From Parabacteroides distasonis ATCC 8503 (GTDB lineage Bacteria > Bacteroidota > Bacteroidia > Bacteroidales > Tannerellaceae), in contig NC_009615.1 in NCBI RefSeq assembly GCF_000012845.1, forward strand, positions 4,590,501 through 4,654,500: a stretch of DNA of 64,000 nucleotides. Direction: 5' to 3'. The translations under genes were made by a program, and so were the position numbers. The notes beneath the pieces were generated by a model. It saw nothing but the letters and a program-made list of their open reading frames with translations, was not told the DNA's origin and made no database searches. Of the stretch, positions 24,023 through 64,000 are shown piece after piece; position 1 is the stretch's first letter, and every line of letters begins with the position of its first letter.

Positions 24023-24094
24023 AACACGGACTACACGGATGACACGGTATTTGTATTTATCCGTGTGTTCCGTGTCATCCGTGTAGTCCGTGTT
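24023..24094. repeat. Perfect 25-bp inverted repeat after hisS
   Basis: Arms 24023-24047 and 24070-24094 are exact complements made of CCGTGT-type words (CCGTGTCATCCGTGTAGTCC). They would form a very stable hairpin with a 22-nt loop, though only a short T stretch follows. It probably serves as hisS terminator or mRNA end protector. Confidence 0.7.
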
Positions 24095-52685: not shown

Positions 52686-53618
52686 ATGAAACAGTATGAT
52701 TTAGCGGAGGGTATGCGGATGTATATAGCCCGATTGAGAGAGCAAGGGCGCTATTCGTCCGCCAAGAGTTATCAGGATGCCTTGAATTCATTCCTGCGTT
52801 TTTGTGGGCAGGAGATGATCCTTTATACCCGTATTGACCGGGAAATGCTTTTGAGATATCAAGATTATTTGCGGGACCGGGAATGCTCGTGGAATACGGT
52901 ATCTACCTATATGCGTAGGATTCGCCGTGTGTATGGATTGGCGATGGAGAATGGGGAGGCTCCTTTTTCCCGTTATTTGTTCAAGGGGATTTTCCTGGGA
53001 GTGAAAAGCAAACAGAAGAAGGCGTTGCCTGCGGAGTCCTTGCGTTTGTTGATGACCGCTCCGCTGGCTGCTCCGGAGTTGCGCAAAACACAGCGGGCAT
53101 TGTGTTTGATGTTCTTGTTTTGCGGTATGGCGTTTGTCGATTTCGCTCATTTGAAAAAGAGTGATATCCGGAATGGGGTCTTGAGGTATAATCGCCAGAA
53201 GACGGGTACGCCGATGTTGGTCGAGATACAGCCTGTGGCCAGGGAGTTGTTGGCTGCGCTGATGACCGACACGCTTCGCGATTCTCCTTATCTATTCACT
53301 TTCTTGAGCGGGACGAAAACGGGTGAAGAGGCCTTCCGGGAATATACCTCTGCCTTGGCTGATTTTAACAGGTCCCTGAAGGAGCTGGCAAATGCCTGTG
53401 GTGTGACGGAAATAGTTACCTCGTATTCGATCCGTCACTCTTTCGCTACGACCTTGAAGGAACAGGGTGTACCGATCGAGATGATCAGCGAATTGCTGGG
53501 ACACCAATCGATCAAGACCACGCAAATCTATTTGAAAAGCTTCTCGTTGGATAGGATGTCTGCGGTGAACAAGGCTTGCTTCGAGAGTATATATAATGAG
53601 GTATCAAAGGTGGGGTAG
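52686..53618 (+). CDS. Tyrosine site-specific recombinase, probable invertase of the adjacent promoter
   Basis: 310 residues from the ATG at 52686; the frame extension to 52548 overlaps the divergent gene and is rejected. SAM-like core-binding domain (about 5-90) then catalytic domain. The lysine (RQKTG), SYSIRHSFA (Arg II/His), LLGHQS and the nucleophile Tyr in TTQIYLKSF are present. At the usual Arg I position the sequence reads FCGMAFVD; loss of Arg I is known in Bacteroidota recombinases such as IntDOT. The gene ends 7 nt before the left 22-bp repeat, so it most likely inverts the promoter segment 53625-56551. Confidence 0.87.
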   Translation: MKQYDLAEGMRMYIARLREQGRYSSAKSYQDALNSFLRFCGQEMILYTRIDREMLLRYQDYLRDRECSWNTVSTYMRRIRRVYGLAMENGEAPFSRYLFKGIFLGVKSKQKKALPAESLRLLMTAPLAAPELRKTQRALCLMFLFCGMAFVDFAHLKKSDIRNGVLRYNRQKTGTPMLVEIQPVARELLAALMTDTLRDSPYLFTFLSGTKTGEEAFREYTSALADFNRSLKELANACGVTEIVTSYSIRHSFATTLKEQGVPIEMISELLGHQSIKTTQIYLKSFSLDRMSAVNKACFESIYNEVSKVG

Positions 53619-53624
53619 GCGATA

Positions 53625-53646
53625 GGCTACTTGGGAAGTAGCGTAA
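53625..53646 (+). repeat. Left inverted repeat of the invertible promoter segment
   Basis: 22 bp, exact reverse complement of 56530-56551. Its core GCTACTTGGGAAGTAGC is itself a near-perfect dyad, as expected for a site bound by two recombinase protomers. Confidence 0.85.
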
Positions 53647-53673
53647 AAAGTGAGAAAATCATTATTACCCTGC

Positions 53674-53766
53674 TGTAGAGACGGAGTGTGCTCCGTCTCC
53701 CACCGTCAGGTAGTAATTTAAAATACCTATTTGAGGGGATGAGACGGGGCACGCCCCGTCTCTACA
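53674..53766. repeat. REP-like pair of palindromes inside the invertible segment
   Basis: Two palindromes, GAGACGGAG-TGTG-CTCCGTCTC (53678-53699) and GAGACGGGGC-AC-GCCCCGTCTC (53741-53762), in opposite orientation. The outer ends TGTAGAGACGG and CCGTCTCTACA make the 93-bp unit symmetrical. This is the form of a REP/BIME-type repetitive element. The rest of 53647-53933 holds no credible gene. Confidence 0.6.
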
Positions 53767-53922
53767 CGATAGTTCGTACGATTTTTGGGTGACGTGATGA
53801 TGTAGGGAATATGAGGTCGTTTCGTCTCCATTGTCGTGTCCGTACACCACGCATAGAAACGAAAAATAGAGGAAAGACAAATTCGGAAAACAAACAAAGC
53901 CTACACAAAGCCTAAAAATTGT

Positions 53923-53933
53923 TTGTTATTCGG
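53923..53933 (+). repeat. Target site duplication, left copy
   Basis: TTGTTATTCGG directly before the IS end, identical to 56489-56499. Preceded here by T, so the original promoter read TTTG at 53922-53925. Confidence 0.85.
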
Positions 53934-54022
53934 TGTAGATACTAATTGAAAAGTGCACCGTATTTTAATTGAAAAGAGCTCCATCCATACTTGTTACAAA
54001 ATTACATATAAGTTTAAAATCT

Positions 54023-54778
54023 TCATTTATCTTGTCTCATTTTTTGTGTTTCTTTGAGCCTATAAGAGAGTCCGGTCATATTTACCAGATAGGCTTTATG
54101 TGTAAGCCTGTCGACCATTGCCGCTACAAGCACCTTGTCCTTTATGATTTCATTCCATCTGTTAAAAGCCAAATTAGTAGTAATGATTGTAGCTTTTTTC
54201 CCGGCCCTTAAGGACAAGTGGTTAAAAAGCAGTTCTCCTCCTTCCTTGTCACAACTGACATATCCGAATTCATCACAGATAACCAGATCGTATTTTTCAA
54301 ACCGTAATTGCAACGCCCGCAGTGTCTTTGCGGATTTGGCTTCCCTTATCTGGGTAAGCAAGACAGGGACTGAAGTAAACAATACGGTAAAATCCTGCTG
54401 GCAGGCCTTTATTCCTAAAGCCGTAGCAATATGAGTCTTTCCCGTCCCCGGATTTCCATACAGGACTATGTTTCTTCCCTCCCTGATGAAGTCCAGTGTT
54501 TCCAATTCAGGCAATATTATCTGTGCCTCTTTGGGCATGTCTTCCATGACAAGTTCATGCAGATACTTCATTTGTGGGAATCCCGCAGATTTTATCCTTG
54601 ATTTTCTTCTACATTCCCTTCTTCTGACACTTTCCTTTCCAAGCAATTCGGTCAAGAAATGCAAATGGCTCCAGTTTTCTCCGGCTGCCAATGAAAGGGT
54701 GTATTCCAGTTCCTCTTTGAAGGCCAGCAGCTTCAGTTCTGTCGCATAGTCATAAATGGTTTCTTTTTCTGATTTCAT
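54023..54778 (-). CDS. istB: IS21 helper ATPase IstB
   Basis: 251 residues, AAA+ family. Walker A in LYGNPGTGKTHIATALG and Walker B in DLVICDEFGYVS are intact. IstB assembles on DNA and activates the IstA transposase and target choice. It starts 11 nt after istA. Confidence 0.93.
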   Translation of the reverse strand: MKSEKETIYDYATELKLLAFKEELEYTLSLAAGENWSHLHFLTELLGKESVRRRECRRKSRIKSAGFPQMKYLHELVMEDMPKEAQIILPELETLDFIREGRNIVLYGNPGTGKTHIATALGIKACQQDFTVLFTSVPVLLTQIREAKSAKTLRALQLRFEKYDLVICDEFGYVSCDKEGGELLFNHLSLRAGKKATIITTNLAFNRWNEIIKDKVLVAAMVDRLTHKAYLVNMTGLSYRLKETQKMRQDK

Positions 54779-54789
54779 ATATTATAAAC

Positions 54790-56388
54790 TTAAATGGTTG
54801 GTATTATATCATGCGCTTCATTGTATCCTGTCATGAGTGCCGTAATGCCTTCAAGCATATCCACGGCTTCTCTTTCTATATTCTCTTGTTGTGCCGGAAG
54901 AACAGGCGACTCCATGGATTCTTCCATCTCTTCCTGTGCGTTGCCATGCAACATGGCCTTTACCTGTTCCGGAGATATCTTTCTGACACCACGTCCGGTC
55001 AGTTCCCTGCATGCCCTGATGATGTCTGTCCCGGAAAAACCATTTTCCCATGCATAGTCCAGCAGCAGGACGAATGCCCTGTTGTCATTCTTGAAATAGC
55101 TGTCATACAGTCTTTTCAGTTCTTCCGGTGCTCTTTGCCAGACCACAGAATGAGGTAATGCACCCGGTTTACGGGAAAGTGTACGCAAGTAGTGCTCCAG
55201 CTTGATGCACCAGTCGCCACCACAATAACTGCGTTGGTGCGAGGCCACTTTCTCCTTCCCGTACAGGATGACGATTTTTTCACTGTAGACCTTGACATGT
55301 ACTTTTTCTCCTACAAGGGAATCAGGTACGGAATAATGAACATTTTTCATGCTGACAGTCGACCACTTGTCCACGATGTACTCATTGACCTCAAAACAGC
55401 CAAGGTTGCCGGGAAAAGGCTTCAGCGATGACAAATCAGCCTCCAGACGCGATGATTTCTCCGCTGTTGAAAGACTGCCCTGCTCGTTGTTGACCTGCGT
55501 ACACATTCGGTTCAAATGCTCCTGGGCGGAACGTATGTCATTGAAATGGTCAGTCAGGCAGAAAGCTTTCCTCCTGACATATTCCACGCTGCGTTCCACA
55601 TGCCCTTTCTCCCATCCGGCCCGTACATTACAGAAACGGTACTCAAAACAATAGAAACCGGACATCTTCATCAGGGCTTCCGTAGGCTTCTTGTCACCAC
55701 CGACAAAGCTCTTGACGGCTACACGCATATTGTCATAGACCATCATGGCGGGGACACCATGTATATCCCTGAAGAAGTTGCGGTGGGATTCCATGAAGGC
55801 AAGCGTATTCTGATGCCTGAAAAGGTAGGCGTATCTGCCATTGCTATGCCCGAAAGTGAATACGGCCAGATAAAACTTGGTCTTGACACCGTCAATAAAA
55901 AGAAGGACTTCACCCCAGTCAAACTCAACAATGCATCCCGGCTCATAGAACAACCGGATAAAGGCTTCGCTCTTTTTCTTCTCTTTGTATGACTCTATAT
56001 TTTTTATATAACTGCACACTGTGGCATAACTGATGGTATATCCTTTGGATAACAGAAACTGGTGGATATCCTTCTTCAGCATGCGCTGCTTGCGAAGCCC
56101 CGTAGCTACCTTAACGGCATTCTTCTTCAGGCAAAACCCGATCTCGTCCTTAATCTCTTGTGTAAGGCGGCGAGGGCGGCGTTTGGAACTGTCATACTTG
56201 GGCTGGACGGTAAGCAAATCACTCAAAGCCTCTTCCGGATTATCAGTACGGATGGCTGATTCGTATTCTGAAAGAATATTGTCAACGGTATGACGGCTGA
56301 CATGAAGTTCACGAGAGATACGCCGTTTGCTATAACCGCATACTCTATACATGTGTATTATTGATTGTCTTTCTACCATAGTCTTCAT
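54790..56388 (-). CDS. istA: IS21 transposase IstA
   Basis: About 532 residues from the ATG at 56388; the frame continues to 56445 but that start lies in the second terminal repeat. N-terminal helix-turn-helix ([20 protein letters not shown]), then the RNase H-like DDE core with D in [12 protein letters not shown] in [11 protein letters not shown] and E in [13 protein letters not shown]. Full length and open, so probably active. Confidence 0.92.
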
Positions 56389-56488
56389 TTTACCTTTGTA
56401 TTTGGATGATACAAAGGTCATTATACTTATCCTATGGCGGCGCACTTTTCAATTGGAATATTGGTGCACTTTTCAATTAGTATCTACA

Positions 56489-56499
56489 TTGTTATTCGG
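56489..56499 (+). repeat. Target site duplication, right copy
   Basis: TTGTTATTCGG identical to 53923-53933. It begins with the TTG used as the -33 part of the capsule promoter. Confidence 0.85.
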
Positions 56500-56517
56500 T
56501 GTTTTTTATTAAATTTG
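56489..56517 (+). promoter_or_regulatory. Invertible capsule promoter, ON orientation
   Basis: TTG at 56489-56491 and TAAATTTG at 56510-56517 with an 18-nt spacer, pointing to upxY. The expected start point (about 56524) lies just before the right inverted repeat, the usual design of invertible Bacteroidales promoters. The base before TTG is now A (from the IS end) instead of T. Confidence 0.75.
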
Positions 56518-56529
56518 CGGCGTGGAAGA

Positions 56530-56551
56530 TTACGCTACTTCCCAAGTAGCC
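56530..56551 (-). repeat. Right inverted repeat of the invertible promoter segment
   Basis: 22 bp, exact reverse complement of 53625-53646, in the 5' leader of the capsule transcript. Inversion between the two would turn the promoter toward the recombinase gene. Confidence 0.85.
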
Positions 56552-56691
56552 ACTCTTTCACGTCCCGATAGAAGAGATATTGACATGGTTTATATTGCTT
56601 TTAAATTTTCGGGAATAGAAAAGAATTTTTGATTTAAGTGTTAGATTATCAGTGTGTTAATATGATGCTCTGATATGGCATTGAATTACCT

Positions 56692-57747
56692 ATGGGTCAT
56701 GATCTTCCTCCTTTACCATCGCGTGATGTCCACGCCGTAAGATGGTATGTGTTATCTCTTCCCGCTTGTCATAAAGGCCCTGCTAAGGGTTTGAAGAAGG
56801 AGTTGGATCGCAGAGTGCGTTTGGGTGAGCCTACGTTCGATTTCTTCGCCCCCTCTTTCGTGGAGATGCGCCGCCGTGAAGGGCATTTGGTGGAGACTCA
56901 CCGTCCGTTGCTCTACAATTATGTGTTTATCCGCTCTTCTGTATATGAGATCTTCCGTTTGAAACGAGATTTTCCCTTGTATAATTTCCTGCCTAGCGTG
57001 GATGGCCGTGGCTCATATCCTTTTGTATCCGATCGTGAGATGGAAAACTTGCGTTGGGTGGCCCGTTCTTACTCGGATGAGCTTCCGGTGTATGTGCCGG
57101 AAGCGGGTTATTTGCGTAAAGGTGACCGGATACGCATCACGGATGGTCGTTTCAAAGGTGTTGAGGCAAGTGTAGTAATACAGCCCGGTGTTGGCGAGCG
57201 GGAGGTAATGGTATGCGTGGACAACTGGATGTGGGTTCCCCTGTTGCGTGTTCAGCCGGGCGAATATGAGGTGATCAGCTTGGCCGAGGAAGGCAAGCAT
57301 GTATATACCCGTTTGGACAATTCCCGGATACAAAATGGTCTTCATGAGGCACTAGGGCGTCATTGGGGAAGTTGTGGCGTTACGGCTGCCGATCGTGAGC
57401 TGGCGGCCGAGACCTTGCGTACCTATGGGGAGTTGCAGTTGGATTCGGCCGTGATGCGTTGCAAGCTCTATTCCCTCTTGTTGCCTGCCTATACGATATT
57501 AGGGGACGAGGAGCGGCAAAAGTCGTTGATCGGAACGATCGTCTCGTTCTTATCCTTGATCCGTGCGGAGCAGTCGTTGGCATTATTACTACTTACGCTT
57601 TATGGCTGTACGGATAGCAGTATCTATTATTATCGTGCGCACGAGTTGATCGATCCGTGGAGCCGGGAATCCTCCCCGAAGAAGAGTAAATTATCTTTGA
57701 TCCGTCGGTTGGCTGATTACGACCGGTGGCTGAAACATAATGAATAA
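56692..57747 (+). CDS. UpxY-type capsule transcription antiterminator with long C-terminal extension
   Basis: 351 residues. The N-terminal NusG-like domain (about 12-115, with AVRWYVLSLPACHKGPAKGL and PLLYNYVFIRS) and a KOW-like part (YLRKGDRIRITDGRFKGVEA, about 140-160) match UpxY proteins, which act on their own capsule operon by antitermination in the leader. Typical Bacteroides UpxY are about half this length; here a helical region of about 170 residues follows. A 167-nt leader separates it from the promoter. First gene of the capsule transcript. Confidence 0.83.
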   Translation: MGHDLPPLPSRDVHAVRWYVLSLPACHKGPAKGLKKELDRRVRLGEPTFDFFAPSFVEMRRREGHLVETHRPLLYNYVFIRSSVYEIFRLKRDFPLYNFLPSVDGRGSYPFVSDREMENLRWVARSYSDELPVYVPEAGYLRKGDRIRITDGRFKGVEASVVIQPGVGEREVMVCVDNWMWVPLLRVQPGEYEVISLAEEGKHVYTRLDNSRIQNGLHEALGRHWGSCGVTAADRELAAETLRTYGELQLDSAVMRCKLYSLLLPAYTILGDEERQKSLIGTIVSFLSLIRAEQSLALLLLTLYGCTDSSIYYYRAHELIDPWSRESSPKKSKLSLIRRLADYDRWLKHNE

Positions 57748-57786: not shown

Positions 57787-58167
57787 ATGTCTTCCCTTCC
57801 CTCCGGTATTCGCTTGGTCGCATTGCTAAACGAACACCTGAACGAGATCATGGAGCGTGAGCGCATGAACCATACCTCGATCCACTTATATTGTACAGGA
57901 CCTTATTGGGTGGCTTTCGAGCGTTCGGCCTACCAGCTGCATCGTGCGTTCCCGGATAGCGAGACCACACCGCTGCGCCTGTTCGCCTACCCGTTCCCAA
58001 TCGTGATGGTCTCCGTTACGGATCGCTCGCTGCGTTCCTACGCCCGTAAACATATCTTGCGGTGGGACGAGACGGATTACGTGGTACTAACTGCTCCCGA
58101 ATCCTCTTCGACCGACTACCGAAGATGGCATGCCGGTGAGGTGGAGGGCTTGCCCCAGCTGACATGA
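57787..58167 (+). CDS. Small protein in the UpxZ position
   Basis: 126 residues, no signal or membrane segment. It contains LYCTGPYWVAFERSAYQLHRAFP near the middle and ends in a hydrophilic tail. In Bacteroides capsule loci the gene after upxY encodes UpxZ, an inhibitor of non-cognate UpxY; this protein has the position but I cannot confirm homology. The gap before it is an AT-rich repeat of AATTCATAATT words. capD starts 16 nt after it. Confidence 0.65.
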   Translation: MSSLPSGIRLVALLNEHLNEIMERERMNHTSIHLYCTGPYWVAFERSAYQLHRAFPDSETTPLRLFAYPFPIVMVSVTDRSLRSYARKHILRWDETDYVVLTAPESSSTDYRRWHAGEVEGLPQLT

Positions 58168-58183
58168 ACCAAAAATTTTATTC

Positions 58184-60124
58184 ATGATGAACCTTTTTTC
58201 TAAACTCTCAACGTGGTATTTCTCAAGGAAAGCGTTGCCGTATTGGAGCATTATCCTGTTGGATTGCTTGGTGATCCTGTTTTCAGGCTTGCTGGTATAT
58301 GCCTTGAATAACGGGATCTTCGCCACGATGGGCATCTTTTGGCACCTGTCGCTCACGTGGGGTGTTTGCCTAGTGCCTTATCTGGTGGGCTTTAGGCTGT
58401 TCCGTACGTATTCGGGCATCATTCGTTACTCTTCCTTCGTGGATTTGCAACGGGTGGGCTTCGCCGTGCTGTTCGGTGTGGTTTGCGTGGTGACCTTCCA
58501 AGAGTTTACGGATTTTTCGCCTTACTTGGTGTATATCCGTAAACGAGACCTTGTGCTATCCTCCCTGCTGGCGATGAGCTTGATGTGGGCGATGCGTGTG
58601 TTCGTGAAGTATTTCTACGTGACAACCTTCCGTCAGTCGAAGGCTGAGCGTGCCTTTATCTTCGGCGTGAAGCAGGGCGGTATCAGTTTGGCGAAGAGCA
58701 TCCAGAACCAAGATCCCGCACAGTACGTGCTGGCAGGCTTCGTCTCGGAGGCCGGGAACATGCAGAATCGTATATTGATGGGAGTGCGTGTGTACCCTTT
58801 CGATGAGGAGCTGATCGATGCGATGCGCCGGGAGCGGGCGACGATCCTTTTCGTCTCCCCCTTGAAGAGCGACTCCATCCGGGAACAGCCGGATATGGTG
58901 GCCCGTTTGGCGGAGGCGGGGATCAAGATCTACGTGACCCCGGCGGCGCAAGAATGGGATGGCAGGAGCGATTTGACGCATACACAACTCCGGAAGGTTG
59001 AGATCGAGGATCTGCTTCCCCGGGAAAAGATAGAGATAGACATGGAGGCGGTGGGCCGCTTGCTTCGTGGTCAACGCATCCTGATAACGGGAGCCGCCGG
59101 CAGCATCGGTGGCGAGATGGTGCGCCAGATCGCCTCGTTCACTCCGGATCGCTTGATCTTGGTAGATCAGGCGGAGACCCCCTTGCACGACATCCGCTTG
59201 ATGATGGCGAGGGATTGGCGGGATATCAACGCCTATACCTTGGTGGCGGACATCGCTAACAAGTCTCGCATGGAGGAGATCTTCTCGGAGCATCGCCCCG
59301 CCTATGTATTCCATGCGGCGGCCTATAAGCACGTTCCGATGATGGAGGATAATCCTTGCGAGAGTGTGGGTAACAACGTGGACGGTACCCGTGTGATCGC
59401 CGACTTGGCCGTGAAGTATGGCACGAGGAAGTTCGTGATGATCTCCACGGACAAGGCGGTGAATCCTACGAATGTGATGGGTTGCTCGAAGCGCATCTGC
59501 GAGATTTACGTGCAGAGCCTCGACAAGGCGATCAAGGAGGGCCATGTGGAAGGCGTGACGCAGTTCGTTACGACCCGCTTCGGCAACGTGCTGGGTTCTA
59601 ACGGCTCCGTGATCCCATTGTTCCGTGAACAGATTGCCAAGGGCGGTCCCGTGACAGTGACGCATCCGGATATCATCCGTTTCTTCATGCTGATCCCGGA
59701 GGCCTGCCGGTTGGTATTGGAGGCGGGTACGATGGGTAACGGTGGGGAGATCTTCGTCTTCGACATGGGCAAGCCCGTGCGTATCATCGACTTGGCGAAA
59801 CGTATGATTCAGCTTTCGGGCGCCAAGAACGTAGAGGTCCGGTTTACGGGTCTTCGTGCCGGCGAGAAGCTGTACGAGGAGGTACTGAACGACGAGGAGA
59901 TCACGCTGCCTACCTTCCATCCGAAGATCAAGATCGCCAAGGTACGGGAGTACGATTATGATACGGTTTGCCAAGATATAGATGAACTCGTCGGCCTAGG
60001 CCGCTCGAGGGACGATATGGCCATCGTGGGCAAGATGAAGGCGATCGTCCCCGAGTTTAAGAGCCGGCACTCCAAGTACGAGGTCTTGGATAAGGCGCTA
60101 GAAAGCGCAAGCACTGATGCCTAA
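58184..60124 (+). CDS. CapD/WbpM-type nucleoside-diphosphate-sugar dehydratase
   Basis: 646 residues: four N-terminal membrane helices (about 17-140), a CoA-binding-like Rossmann domain (150-270), and a C-terminal short-chain dehydrogenase domain with GAAGSIGGEMVRQ (about 304). The catalytic stretch STDKAVNPTNVMGCSKRICE has Met where other SDRs have Tyr, as in WbpM/FlaA1-type UDP-HexNAc 4,6-dehydratases. It makes a keto-deoxy sugar for capsule or O-glycan. Its last 27 bases overlap the antisense smalltalk gene. Confidence 0.9.
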   Translation: MMNLFSKLSTWYFSRKALPYWSIILLDCLVILFSGLLVYALNNGIFATMGIFWHLSLTWGVCLVPYLVGFRLFRTYSGIIRYSSFVDLQRVGFAVLFGVVCVVTFQEFTDFSPYLVYIRKRDLVLSSLLAMSLMWAMRVFVKYFYVTTFRQSKAERAFIFGVKQGGISLAKSIQNQDPAQYVLAGFVSEAGNMQNRILMGVRVYPFDEELIDAMRRERATILFVSPLKSDSIREQPDMVARLAEAGIKIYVTPAAQEWDGRSDLTHTQLRKVEIEDLLPREKIEIDMEAVGRLLRGQRILITGAAGSIGGEMVRQIASFTPDRLILVDQAETPLHDIRLMMARDWRDINAYTLVADIANKSRMEEIFSEHRPAYVFHAAAYKHVPMMEDNPCESVGNNVDGTRVIADLAVKYGTRKFVMISTDKAVNPTNVMGCSKRICEIYVQSLDKAIKEGHVEGVTQFVTTRFGNVLGSNGSVIPLFREQIAKGGPVTVTHPDIIRFFMLIPEACRLVLEAGTMGNGGEIFVFDMGKPVRIIDLAKRMIQLSGAKNVEVRFTGLRAGEKLYEEVLNDEEITLPTFHPKIKIAKVREYDYDTVCQDIDELVGLGRSRDDMAIVGKMKAIVPEFKSRHSKYEVLDKALESASTDA

Positions 60125-60271: not shown

Positions 60272-60763
60272 TTATATCTCATCCGGGCTCTCGCTGTCCG
60301 AGGAGCCGTTCTTACCGGAGATATCCACCGTTGTCTTACCGGCCTTCTGGGCCTTGATGACGGCGGCTTGGGCGGCCCGGGTGGGGACGAGGTTGAACTT
60401 GAGGCCTTGGAAGATGACTTGAAGTTCCTCGCCGGGGACGAACTGGATGTTCACCCCCTTGATATAGTCGGAGGTGAACAGGTCGGCACTTGGCGCTCCC
60501 CCGGAATTGATCTGGAGGCGGAAGGCACCCAGATCGCCGAAATCCACCTGCTTGCCGGCTTTCAGAACTTCCAGCATACACTCGGTGGTGGCGATGAGCA
60601 CGGCCGAAACGTCGGCTTGGTGCACCGTACATTTACTCGCTATCAGGGTAGATAGCTCTTTTAGGTTGAGCTCGCCGTTGGTTTGCGCCTTGGCGTAGGC
60701 TTTCTTGGGTTCCTCTTTTTTCAACGGGTTACCCATCATGGCAATGGAATAGTTTAATGACAT
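60272..60763 (-). CDS. HU-like DNA-binding protein
   Basis: 163 residues from the ATG at 60763. HU/IHF-type fold with LKELSTLIASKCTVHQADVS, the GKQVDFGDLGAFRLQINS loop and VNIQFVPGEELQVIFQGLKF, plus a C-terminal low-complexity tail (about 130-163, rich in Ala, Lys, Ser). This is the Bacteroidetes HU-HIG type. It lies between the smalltalk and M15 peptidase genes, as usual for the cassette. Confidence 0.85.
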   Translation of the reverse strand: MSLNYSIAMMGNPLKKEEPKKAYAKAQTNGELNLKELSTLIASKCTVHQADVSAVLIATTECMLEVLKAGKQVDFGDLGAFRLQINSGGAPSADLFTSDYIKGVNIQFVPGEELQVIFQGLKFNLVPTRAAQAAVIKAQKAGKTTVDISGKNGSSDSESPDEI

Positions 60764-60851
60764 AATCGTAAGATATTTTAAGTGATACATAAGGAACTTG
60801 GGGGATGATGAGTTGAGTCCTCACGCTTGATGACTTGGCTCTTCGTGCTCC

Positions 60852-60887
60852 TTGATTTAAGTCTTCGGTTTGAAAGACTTAAGTCAA
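60852..60887. repeat. Hairpin after the M15 peptidase gene
   Basis: 14-bp stem TTGATTTAAGTCTT / AAGACTTAAGTCAA with one G-U pair and an 8-nt loop; it overlaps the peptidase stop codon. No T run follows on the minus strand, so it may act on mRNA stability more than termination. Confidence 0.5.
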
Positions 60888-61309
60888 TTAGGCGACTTTT
60901 CTTTATCGATAACCTGACAGCGAAGATTGCCGGGTACGTAAGAGATATGGATCCATCGGGCGCCGGGCTCTAGGATGAGCTGAGTGAACTCGAGTCCGCA
61001 CAGCTCGTGCGTCTCTTGTATCAGTCGGAACAAGAGGCGATGATCATCTGGAGAGCCGGCTATCAGGTCGGCGGCGCAACCGAGGAGGTGGTGACTGTGC
61101 TTGGCTCCCCCGATAAGGATGTTCAATTCGGGGCAGCGATAGCCGCTACTGATGACGATGGGTCTGCCCCAGACCCGCCGTAGCGGGTCTAGCAGCATTT
61201 CCACTAGGATCGTGACCATTTGCTGGGCCACCGGGGTGAGGCTGTTGTCGATCCCGTCTCGCCGGGCCGTGGCGGAGTCTTCAAACTCTTGATAATTAAA
61301 GTAGCGCAT
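60884..61309 (-). CDS. M15 family D-Ala-D-Ala carboxypeptidase/endolysin-like
   Basis: 141 residues from the ATG at 61309. The zinc site of peptidase M15_3 is seen in SSGYRCPELN, SHHLLGCAADL (His, Asp) and WIHISY (His). No signal peptide, so it resembles phage endolysins that need a holin or lysis for access to peptidoglycan. In many Bacteroides cassettes this place is held by an amidase. Confidence 0.85.
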   Translation of the reverse strand: MRYFNYQEFEDSATARRDGIDNSLTPVAQQMVTILVEMLLDPLRRVWGRPIVISSGYRCPELNILIGGAKHSHHLLGCAADLIAGSPDDHRLLFRLIQETHELCGLEFTQLILEPGARWIHISYVPGNLRCQVIDKEKSPN

Positions 61310-61410
61310 AGGAGACAAGGTTGATGTTTTTGTTTCTGTAGCAAAGATACGATAGGCGGAAAGCCCGGATATACCATTTGTTTCCACCTATTCGCTCTAG
61401 GAGAAGAATT

Positions 61411-61605
61411 TTAGGGTTCCCCTAAAAAATCATAGAATATCTGTACTTGCTTTGGCGTGATGGAGCGATCTTTCGAGTGATAACCATGACGGATAAGGGC
61501 CTCTTTCAGTCCTTTCACGTCACGGATATATCGGTTCAACTTATGCAAAGCGTTCGAAGGGGTGCCTGTCAGGCAATATTGACGGGCGAGATCTATTTTT
61601 TTCAT
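61411..61605 (-). CDS. DUF4248 family protein
   Basis: 64 residues, cytosolic, with KIDLARQYCLTGTPSNALHK and KQVQIFYDFLGEP, the pattern of the DUF4248 family. It looks like a small DNA-binding helical protein. It is part of the cassette between the M15 and DUF3987 genes. Confidence 0.8.
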   Translation of the reverse strand: MKKIDLARQYCLTGTPSNALHKLNRYIRDVKGLKEALIRHGYHSKDRSITPKQVQIFYDFLGEP

Positions 61606-61635
61606 CTGTGTTGAATTTTAAAATGACTATAGGAG

Positions 61636-61683
61636 GGTTTCAAGTTTCAAGGTTTCATGAACCCTCTTTCCTCACACACACGT
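61636..61683 (+). repeat. Left copy of a 48-bp inverted repeat
   Basis: Starts GGTTTCAAGTTTCAAGG, ends CCTCACACACACGT. Its reverse complement occurs at 63161-63208 inside the DUF3987 gene with 44 of 48 bases matching; similarity continues a little inward as GTACAT-TATAT. Lies in the gap between the DUF4248 and DUF3987 genes. Confidence 0.8.
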
Positions 61684-61690
61684 ACGTACA

Positions 61691-63481
61691 TTATATGGGT
61701 TTCAAATAAATCCCTTTATGCTCGCCATGCAGGAGGGCTCCAGAGTCGCATAGTCGGCGTAGCCATGTCTTGGCGGTGTTCTTGGGGATGTTGGCATGCT
61801 CGGCGGTCTCCATCCATTGGACGGTGGTGAACTCGTCTGGCATGGAGCTGAGCAGACTGTCCTTTTCCGAGAGGCCTCGGCTGGTGATCTCGCCGGTAGG
61901 CAGGAATGAGAGGATATGGGTGGCGTGGAGGTAGAGCGGCTCTGCCATTGTCAGAAGGGCGGCGAAGTCATCGTCGGTGATATGGAGTTCCCAGCCTCCA
62001 ATGATCTTGTCCTTTAGGTTGTCGCTGTTGATGCCTTGGGCCGGCAGCAGTAATTCCGGTTGTTCCAAGGCACGAAGCATGGCTACCACCTCCATGAAAC
62101 GTACGAGGTTGATGGCGAGGCGTACCACGGAACTGTTCATCTCCTGCCCGTTGGATTGCCGGGCACGCAGGAAAAGACGTACGAAGCTGTCGTTGAAAGC
62201 GGCTTGTTGCTGCTCGTCGAGGCGCAAGGTAATGGTACCCCGGCACTTGAGCTGATCGATCGTGGCCTTCCACTCGTACCCCATCCGGTGGAATTCCTTC
62301 TCGGCGTCTACCTCGTCGACGGAGAATTGGTCGATCCATTCCCGGATCTGCGATTTGTAGTAGAAGACCTCACGGCTGAAGAGCCCGTTCTCGCCCGAGG
62401 GGATAAGCGGCGCTACCTGTCCGGGCGTACCCGAGAGCACCATCGAGAGGAAGGTGGAATCGCATTCCCGGTATTCGTTATCGGTCCGTCGGTTGAACGA
62501 GAGCCCGGCATGGTCGAAAGCGTTACGGAGCGTATCGCTCCAATGCCCGTAATCACCCCCGATAGCGGTGGTGATGGTATCCGCCTCGGTCTCGAAAATG
62601 ATACCGGTGCCGTCCGAATCGATGATATTTTGCAAGATACCCGTCCCGGTGTTGTTGCCGGAGATGATAAACATACTGTTTTTAGGCATCTGGGGCATCT
62701 CCATCTTGGCTTTCTCCTTGCCTAAGGCATGATAGGCAGCCAAATCTTGGCGGTACTGTTTCATCGCTAGGTCCACTTGTTGGCGGATCTCCCGGTGGAT
62801 AGGCTCGATAAACTTACGCAGCCACGCCATGATGCCCTTACCCGATGCGGGCGGAGCGATCACGAAGAGCTGGATACAGGGATAGATCCAATGCATCCCA
62901 TAGAGGCAACGCACCGTCTTGCCCAAGGTGGCGCCTAGGGCGGTGAGAGCCGTGAGCAAAAGGATATCCCGCTGCTCGGCATTATCGGCGAAACCGAGGA
63001 TGTCCCGTAGCAACGAGGGCCATGGATAGCCGGGTACCAGCCGTGGCAGGGAGGTGTAAGGCTCACTGCCGATGTGGAGTGGGGCGTCGTTTGCCTCGGT
63101 TTCCCGATCGCTGGTCTCGTGGGCTTGATCTACCGTATCGGCTATATTATATGTACTCACACGTGTGTGTGAGGAAAAGGGTTTCGTGAAACCTTGAAAC
63201 TTGAAACCTATTTCCACGCCCGCCAGCTTGGCTAAGTGGAAAGCGGTGCCCAGATGGACATTCTGGTTTCCGGTGCGCAAGGCACTGGAGAAAAGCTTGT
63301 TGGCGTGTAGGGCGTTGAACTTGGGCGATGGCTCGCAGAGACTGATGAAGTCGCTACGTCCTGCCTCCCCGCAATCGGTGGCGATGGCGAAAGCCAATTG
63401 TACATACTCGGCGTAAGTGGGGGCGATATCGGCATGGGTCGCCCGTACCGCCTCGACTAGTTTGGAAAGATCGTTGTTCAT
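61691..63481 (-). CDS. PriCT-type domain plus DUF3987 helicase/primase-like protein
   Basis: 596 residues. Residues 1-90 look like a primase C-terminal (PriCT_2) domain; residues 92-107 form a Ser/Thr/Phe-rich linker encoded by the right 48-bp repeat. The rest is the DUF3987 domain with a Walker A-like APPASGKGIM (about 230) and a downstream FETEADTI acidic motif. It resembles replication proteins of mobile elements. Start overlaps the VirE-N stop by ATGA. No phage or plasmid genes are adjacent. Confidence 0.8.
   Translation of the reverse strand: MNNDLSKLVEAVRATHADIAPTYAEYVQLAFAIATDCGEAGRSDFISLCEPSPKFNALHANKLFSSALRTGNQNVHLGTAFHLAKLAGVEIGFKFQGFTKPFSSHTRVSTYNIADTVDQAHETSDRETEANDAPLHIGSEPYTSLPRLVPGYPWPSLLRDILGFADNAEQRDILLLTALTALGATLGKTVRCLYGMHWIYPCIQLFVIAPPASGKGIMAWLRKFIEPIHREIRQQVDLAMKQYRQDLAAYHALGKEKAKMEMPQMPKNSMFIISGNNTGTGILQNIIDSDGTGIIFETEADTITTAIGGDYGHWSDTLRNAFDHAGLSFNRRTDNEYRECDSTFLSMVLSGTPGQVAPLIPSGENGLFSREVFYYKSQIREWIDQFSVDEVDAEKEFHRMGYEWKATIDQLKCRGTITLRLDEQQQAAFNDSFVRLFLRARQSNGQEMNSSVVRLAINLVRFMEVVAMLRALEQPELLLPAQGINSDNLKDKIIGGWELHITDDDFAALLTMAEPLYLHATHILSFLPTGEITSRGLSEKDSLLSSMPDEFTTVQWMETAEHANIPKNTAKTWLRRLCDSGALLHGEHKGIYLKPI
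63161..63208 (-). repeat. Right copy of the 48-bp inverted repeat, inside the DUF3987 gene
   Basis: Inverted partner of 61636-61683, read in frame as residues 92-107 of the DUF3987 protein (GFKFQGFTKPFSSHTR). Confidence 0.8.
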
Positions 63482-64000
63482 GATATGAATATTTTAGCGT
63501 TAGAATCGTGAGACAAGAAACAGCAGCGGGCGATATCCTTGCCACAGGTATCCACCTCACCCTTGAAGGTGTCGGCATACAGGAGCTGTATGTAGCTCAT
63601 GGCCCATCGAACGGTCTCGTCTCCGGGTATGAAAAGCTTCACTCCCAGTCCTCCGGGACTGACAAAGGCGAGGCGGGTCCCGAGATAGGGATCGGCGAAG
63701 AGGCGGTCCCGGAGTTGTTCCGCCTCCTCGAGAGAGGCGAGATGGTCGATATCGACCACTACCAACCCCGAGGCGGAGATGAGAGCGTCGCTCTTACGAC
63801 GGGAAAAAACGCCGTGGGGCGTTACGAACGGCAGTTGTCGCTGTTTGAGTTGGCGGTATTCCGCTACCCTGCCTTCCCTGATGAAGGCGCGTAATTCGTT
63901 GGTAACCGTTTCGAGAGATTTATCCTCGGTGATCCATCGGTACACTTCCCGTAGTGTACAGTTCCCGGTCGGAAGCGTGTTGGTGATGGGAGGAAGAAAG
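63478..64000 (-). CDS. VirE N-terminal (BT4734-like) protein, partial
   Basis: The reading frame stays open through the right window edge (upstream codons read FLPPITNTLPTGN before YRWITEDKS), so the start lies beyond 64000. The visible 173 residues include ASGLVVVDIDHLASLEEAE and GVKLFIPGDE, matching the VirE N-terminal / BT4734-BF3469 family, often upstream of DUF3987 proteins. It probably forms the primase part of a primase-helicase pair. A GTG at 63945 is only an internal candidate. Confidence 0.78.
   Translation of the reverse strand, partial: FLPPITNTLPTGNCTLREVYRWITEDKSLETVTNELRAFIREGRVAEYRQLKQRQLPFVTPHGVFSRRKSDALISASGLVVVDIDHLASLEEAEQLRDRLFADPYLGTRLAFVSPGGLGVKLFIPGDETVRWAMSYIQLLYADTFKGEVDTCGKDIARCCFLSHDSNAKIFIS

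Follow-up and report, generated by a model that had tools for sequence, protein, structure and literature searches.

The closest described relatives of the switch considered here are the capsule operons of Parabacteroides distasonis APCS2/PD, 10 of 12 of which are described as having an inverted repeat of consensus GCTACTYRGNRAGTAGC, an integrase and a NusG-type first gene, with invertible promoter segments of 314-345 bp and the integrase in front (PMC12118408). In that account the promoter regions are termed putative, the first gene of the repeat-bearing operons is annotated as NusG rather than UpxY, and capsule expression is said to shift under phage; the two operons described as turned down by phage exposure are without an invertible promoter (PMC12118408). 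For P. distasonis ATCC 8503, 14 capsule loci have been reported; the uphY-like clusters compared there contain an integrase gene, and capsule expression in the species is described as potentially controlled by inversion of promoter regions (PMC9409006). In Bacteroides fragilis, capsule promoters are described as being turned by the invertase Mpi (PMC12632263), and a transposon in a polysaccharide locus has been reported inside a biosynthesis gene, not in a switch (PMC3090145).

The locus described here was analysed within a stretch of 64,000 nucleotides of the ATCC 8503 genome (positions 4,590,501-4,654,500 of a single contig of 4,811,379 bp), the whole of which is referred to as the window. 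We hold with good confidence that it is a recombinase-driven ON/OFF capsule switch of the published P. distasonis kind, which now stands in the ON orientation, has been enlarged by an IS21-family element and can probably still be inverted.

The switch region and the capsule locus

The features of the region are listed in Table 1. The segment is enclosed by two 22-nt inverted repeats with 100% complementarity; perfect inverted pairs of 22 bp lying at most 3 kb apart are expected by chance about 1e-5 times per window, given the base composition. The pattern TTG-N17-20-TANNTTTG was matched once in the segment when both strands were scanned, the match facing upxY and ending 12 bp before the right repeat, while six bases separate the stop codon of the tyrosine recombinase gene from the left repeat. 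Perfect 22-bp repeats, a single Bacteroides-type promoter directed at upxY and a recombinase gene ending just outside the left repeat had all been proposed in an initial annotation made from the sequence, and all three were borne out. The two REP-like palindromes inside the segment were ruled out as a dedicated part of the switch, as they occur at 45 places in the genome; by eye, they are absent from four segments of a related genome (G017:C36, C44, C51 and C70).

Table 1. Features of the switch region and the adjoining capsule locus, in window coordinates
Feature	Position	Strand	Evidence or remark
Tyrosine recombinase, 310 aa, presumed segment invertase	52686..53618	+	PF00589 4e-18, PF13102 2.2e-16
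Left inverted repeat, GGCTACTTGGGAAGTAGCGTAA	53625..53646	+	Fits published P. distasonis consensus GCTACTYRGNRAGTAGC (PMC12118408)
Two REP-like palindromes, GAGACGG..CCGTCTC	53678..53762	.	Dispersed repeat
Left copy of 11-bp target duplication, TTGTTATTCGG	53923..53933	+	Single copy at empty site of NM39_I3 (G004:C87)
Complete IS21-family element, 26-bp terminal repeats	53934..56488	-	Six genomic copies, 100% identical
istB, IS21 helper ATPase	54023..54778	-	NF038214 2e-68, above cut-off
istA, IS21 transposase	54790..56445	-	NF033546 3.1e-60, above cut-off
Right copy of 11-bp target duplication, TTGTTATTCGG	56489..56499	+	First three bases are the -33 TTG
ON promoter TTG-N18-TAAATTTG, toward upxY	56489..56517	+	Predicted from sequence only; TTG 56489-56491, 18-nt spacer, TAAATTTG 56510-56517
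Right inverted repeat	56530..56551	+	22 nt, perfect complement of left repeat
Leader hairpin with covariation	56647..56675	+	Directly 5' of conserved GGCNNTGAAT at 56677-56686
upxY-like NusG-family antiterminator, first locus gene	56692..57747	+	NF033644 7.3e-19, 68.3 bits, below cut-off of 100
126-aa ORF	57787..58167	+	No significant family match
CapD/PseB-like nucleotide-sugar dehydratase	58184..60124	+	PF02719 5.4e-112
Opposed block: HU-HIG protein, M15 peptidase, DUF4248, DUF3987/PriCT	60272..63999	-	Between regulatory and biosynthesis genes

The NusG and KOW matches of the upxY-like gene are weak. The 126-aa ORF that follows it sits at what we take to be the usual position of upxZ. Past the opposed block, the downstream scan, in which 10 of 17 ORFs were profiled and three of these 10 had no match at 1e-5, identified a flippase-like protein, an acyltransferase, an IspD-type cytidylyltransferase, a CDP-glycerol glycerophosphotransferase and an epimerase.

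In the leader that separates the right repeat from upxY, a hairpin with GGCNNTGAAT directly after it was found at 16 of 18 loci, drawn from the 24 related loci described below; the element was missing from locus L005 of genome G000 and from G004:C109, and the other 16 were aligned. It was observed that 95.8% of 144 cells were paired in this alignment, compared to at most 50% in slid controls, and that 15 cells had changed on both sides, with a covariation score of 0.408; neither of the latter values was reached in 500 shuffles, the structure having been picked from the same sequences on which it was scored, which favours it. Two weaker measures gave four pairs with double change (reached by 25 of 500 shuffles) and 11 further pair types compared to a mean of 10.9 (reached by 316 of 500), and a slide of -2 scored 0.315. 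UpxY proteins are described as preventing termination within the 5' leaders that lie in front of upxY (PMC7819879), and the hairpin together with GGCNNTGAAT may be a loading site for the UpxY protein.

An IS21-family element beside the -33 box

A second inverted pair (53934-53959 and 56463-56488, 26 nt, 100%) lies within the first and forms the ends of an insertion sequence (IS), which accounts for 2,555 bp of a core-to-core length of 2,925 bp. Both istA and istB score above their NCBIfam cut-offs (the extent of istA being that of the longest ORF, with a GTG start; an ATG start gives 543 amino acids), and with its terminal inverted repeats, TGT...ACA ends and short target duplication the element is an ordinary member of the IS21 family. 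The 11-bp target duplication was found at the window copy and at none of the five other genomic copies, and a comparison of the six copies for swapped target duplications gave no convincing pair. Copies of 92.3% identity are present on four Bacteroidales plasmid records, three of which were examined and have target duplications of 9, 9 and 8 bp, both of the 9-bp ones at one site. Among 38 genomes of the genus (E up to 1e-100), the element was found in the window genome alone, with a 70% relative in G024; this does not strictly establish its absence from the others, as scoring covered at most seven first-look candidates in each genome. No promoter within the element reading out toward the capsule was found with the TTG-N17-20-TANNTTTG pattern, and scans for sigma-70 promoters and terminators gave counts near the shuffle means (9 compared to 7.4, and 6 compared to 4.0, respectively).

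An empty site was identified in P. distasonis NM39_I3 (NZ_SRYM01000018.1; G004:C87), where an orthologous recombinase (95% identity) and the same repeat cores accompany an IS-free segment of 304 bp containing a single TTGTTATTCGG. Among the genomes compared, NM39_I3 was the only one apart from that of the window to yield this switch in full. Without the IS and one copy of the duplication, the window segment would measure 359 bp core to core, with 325 bp between the cores, a length resembling that of its paralogues. The segment was most likely enlarged from 359 to 2,925 bp, about eightfold, by a recent IS21 insertion. The anatomy proposed in the initial annotation was upheld, while 2.9 kb as the natural length of the segment was not. 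That annotation had overlooked the element inside, the duplicated target at the -33 box, and the turning of istAB toward upxY that any inversion would bring.

Because the duplication begins with the -33 TTG, the TTG-N18-TAAATTTG core and its 18-nt spacing were left unchanged. The bases preceding this TTG are GC (16) or GT (2) in all 18 other segments; in the window, the left copy of the duplication has GT and the working right copy CA. Some 2.55 kb now separates the promoter from the upstream half of the segment, which is beyond the IS, and the segment middle, which is moderately conserved among the P. distasonis modules, likewise lies past it (alignment of 19 segments, that of the window with its flanks joined; G017:C52, G023:C43 and G023:C129 were left out). 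With its core and spacing kept but the bases 5' of the TTG changed and the segment middle displaced, the promoter is probably still active, though its strength may have altered; the switch, too, is probably still invertible despite the IS.

Orientation among paralogous and related modules

A search of the genome for the repeat core, allowing up to one mismatch, returned 20 places, compared to one for a reversed control pattern. These make up nine modules, each with an adjacent recombinase of the same clade, always beside the left repeat; an additional repeat occurs in one of them (4423345 and 4423372), and the place at 4562230 is unpaired. The eight recombinase paralogues share 58-69% identity and each adjoins its own repeat pair. 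The two 17-bp cores are exact reverse complements within each module, with five core types across the modules, a match that would fit strand exchange needing matching overlaps. Seven modules were found in the OFF orientation and two in the ON orientation, these being that of the window and L004, at 332 kb; the strict pattern missed the -7 box of L004, TATATTCG, and this module was assigned the ON orientation first by eye and afterwards with a looser pattern.

The core pattern was present in five of the 38 genus genomes, one of which (G020) had it once, not above the reversed control, whose counts ranged from 0 to 4 per genome. Among the matches listed, 25 recombinases from five genomes had at least 51% identity, and 24 loci from four genomes were kept after the most distant (G018:C40, 51%) had been left out. 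Orientation could be read in 22 of the 24 loci, seven being ON and 15 OFF (two of the 22 by eye), the loci left out being G004:C109, which has one repeat and has lost its segment, and G023:C33. The contig of the latter ends at the inner edge of the repeat, which the other two G023 contigs do not; this could come from a mixed population in the assembly, among other possible causes. A weak -7 box (TTCG) was seen in two of seven ON and none of 15 OFF segments, numbers too few to mean anything.

Both orientations were observed across paralogues and relatives, while the window locus and its NM39_I3 orthologue are both ON, with no flip between them. Within G017, the segment of C36 (ON) is 98.8% identical (336/340) to that of C44 (OFF) and 97.9% identical (332/339) to that of C70 (OFF), in each case reversed between near-identical flanks, and these pairs are the best natural evidence of inversion.

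The recombinase gene was parsed at 20 of 21 loci tried (G004:C33 had no parsed recombinase ORF), and its stop codon lies 1-10 nt before the repeat core at 19 of these, with a 1-nt overlap at the remaining one. The arginine that is usually the first catalytic residue of tyrosine recombinases is absent from all 20 (motif aligned by eye), a point against the switch reading. There is a precedent in the CTnDOT integrase, where another arginine is described as making up for the loss of the first (PMC8138268).

The combination of a recombinase, its site and an upxY-type gene, which the initial annotation had put forward for the one locus, recurs in all nine modules of the genome and in three related genomes, and its broader claim of a recombinase-linked invertible promoter heading a capsule locus is supported by the nine modules, the relatives, the two orientations and the downstream biosynthesis genes. 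Orthologous loci that keep the recombinase and lack the repeats, which it had named as grounds for rejecting the claim, were not found: the NM39_I3 orthologue (95% identity) has both repeats, and G023:C33 (85% identity) has the left repeat, where its contig ends.

Readings of the locus and comparison with known systems

The switch is envisaged to work as follows. The neighbouring tyrosine recombinase would act on the two near-palindromic repeats and invert the intervening DNA; the single promoter would then face either upxY, which it would drive (ON), or the 3' end of the recombinase gene (OFF). As that gene ends at the repeat, transcription from the OFF promoter would be antisense to it. The IS21 element inserted beside the -33 box, its target duplication preserving the core promoter and its end replacing the upstream neighbourhood, and inversion with the element aboard would point istAB toward upxY.

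The insertion may have broken the switch, either by disabling or weakening the promoter or by stopping the enlarged segment from turning, so that the locus would be locked. The IS end does replace conserved bases directly 5' of the -33 TTG, the upstream half of the segment has been shifted by 2.55 kb, and a copy of this IS is present in the locus of each ON module, as might be expected if expressed loci were being silenced; yet the repeats, the recombinase frame, the TTG, the 18-nt spacing and TAAATTTG are all intact, and site-specific recombinases are able to turn segments of several kb, and we consider a broken switch unlikely. The IS copy at the other ON module (339,882-342,436) lies 7.4 kb downstream of L004 and appears to cut a further ORF, and with it the operon, the ORFs in between being flippase-like and glycosyltransferase-like by eye. 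The seven OFF modules are each more than 140 kb from the nearest IS copy. The probability that both IS-bearing modules should by chance be the two ON ones is 1 in 36, a figure computed after the pattern had been seen. A more elaborate proposal is that the insertion re-wired the switch, cutting the promoter from its upstream half, with the promoter back to back with the start of istA in the ON state and istAB directed toward upxY in the OFF state, so that neither orientation would be silent and the transposase would be tied to capsule phase, and that the IS marks expressed capsule loci, as if damped; taken as a whole, this is very improbable.

As to what turns the segment, one of the eight paralogous recombinases could act in trans in place of the neighbour, as two modules, L001 and L002, share the identical core GCTACTTGGGAAGTAGC; against this, every one of the nine modules has a single recombinase for its repeat pair, placed each time at the left repeat, and action in trans is considered decidedly unlikely. 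The transposase gene pair between the repeats might also suggest a single mobile element of 2.9 kb with the 22-bp repeats as its ends, and no invertible segment at all. This is almost certainly wrong: 26-bp ends and a target duplication belonging to the IS itself lie within the repeats, the cores do not flank any of the five other IS copies, and the empty site in NM39_I3, where the repeats are kept around the IS-free 304-bp segment, refutes it.

This capsule locus of the type strain ATCC 8503, with a transposon in its switch, may behave differently from that of other strains in work on phase variation, phage and colonisation, and the nine parallel modules together with the IS-free relative offer a clean natural test of how much of its segment an invertible promoter requires. 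A published IS inside an invertible promoter was not found among titles and abstract openings in a limited literature, partly on E. coli, and this insertion may still be published.

Among known systems, the locus resembles the P. distasonis switches of APCS2/PD in its shared repeat sequence, a 17-bp GCTACTYRGNRAGTAGC inverted pair, in its internal promoter (predicted from the DNA), in the adjoining tyrosine recombinase of integrase type, and in a first gene of NusG/upxY type (below the cut-off of the UpxY model) followed by capsule biosynthesis genes. It differs in length, the segment containing an IS21 element and measuring 2,925 bp, compared to 359 bp core to core without it, and thus lying outside the 314-345 bp of the described segments; as the excess is the IS, the window switch is taken to be an interrupted member of this group. 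It is like the Mpi switches of B. fragilis in that a promoter would be inverted upstream of upxY in a capsule locus. Mpi is, however, a serine recombinase that works in trans at many sites, whereas the window site and its paralogues each have an adjoining tyrosine recombinase. In the fim switch of E. coli with fimE, as at the window locus, the gene for a tyrosine recombinase ends beside the left repeat and the OFF promoter would be antisense to it; by analogy, expression of the window recombinase might be under orientation control. The type of switch is already known; the present analysis contributes the IS21 insertion at the -33 box and a comparison across nine modules.

Leader, opposed block and IS21 copy in the capsule loci

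A covarying hairpin followed by GGCNNTGAAT was identified in the leader of the upxY-like gene, and was found at the equivalent position in 15 related leaders besides that of the window; it is possibly a loading or pause element for UpxY. The gene block running in the opposed direction further into the capsule locus may be a phage-like insertion of the sort described for P. distasonis capsule loci in passages of two published reports (PMC3090145, PMC9409006). A scan of the window for perfect inverted repeats, limited to pairs 22 bp or longer that lie within 3.2 kb, gave two more pairs, at 24023-24094 and 61636/63187.

The IS21 copy in the capsule locus behind the only other ON module (region L068) adjoins an ORF judged by eye to be HipA-like, and target duplication was absent at the ends of this copy; this arrangement may be the scar left by a deletion.

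Features of the capsule loci (window coordinates unless another region is named)
Feature	Position	Context	Occurrence
Covarying hairpin, then GGCNNTGAAT	56647-56686	Directly before upxY	16/18 leaders examined
Opposed block: HU-HIG, M15 peptidase, DUF4248, DUF3987	60272-63999	Between regulatory and biosynthesis genes	
IS21 element, same as the window's	L068:7883-10437	Within capsule locus behind only other ON module	

Related recombinase loci

In one G000 module (L008) the right-hand repeat is doubled in tandem (4423345 and 4423372, spacing 27 bp). In a relative (L059, G004:C109) the recombinase gene is followed by a single repeat and an upxY-type ORF, with the invertible segment missing; such a loss would leave this locus without the segment's promoter. 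At the most distant recombinase locus (G018:C40) an exact inverted pair of the core lies upstream of the gene (L024:1326-1481) instead of downstream, where a search for a core pair found none.

When the recombinase at 52686-53618 and 19 relatives were aligned by eye, all 20 recombinases parsed had [FY][CSGA]G[MI][AS]F at the position of the first catalytic arginine usual in tyrosine recombinases. There is published precedent for the loss of this arginine in the CTnDOT integrase (PMC8138268).
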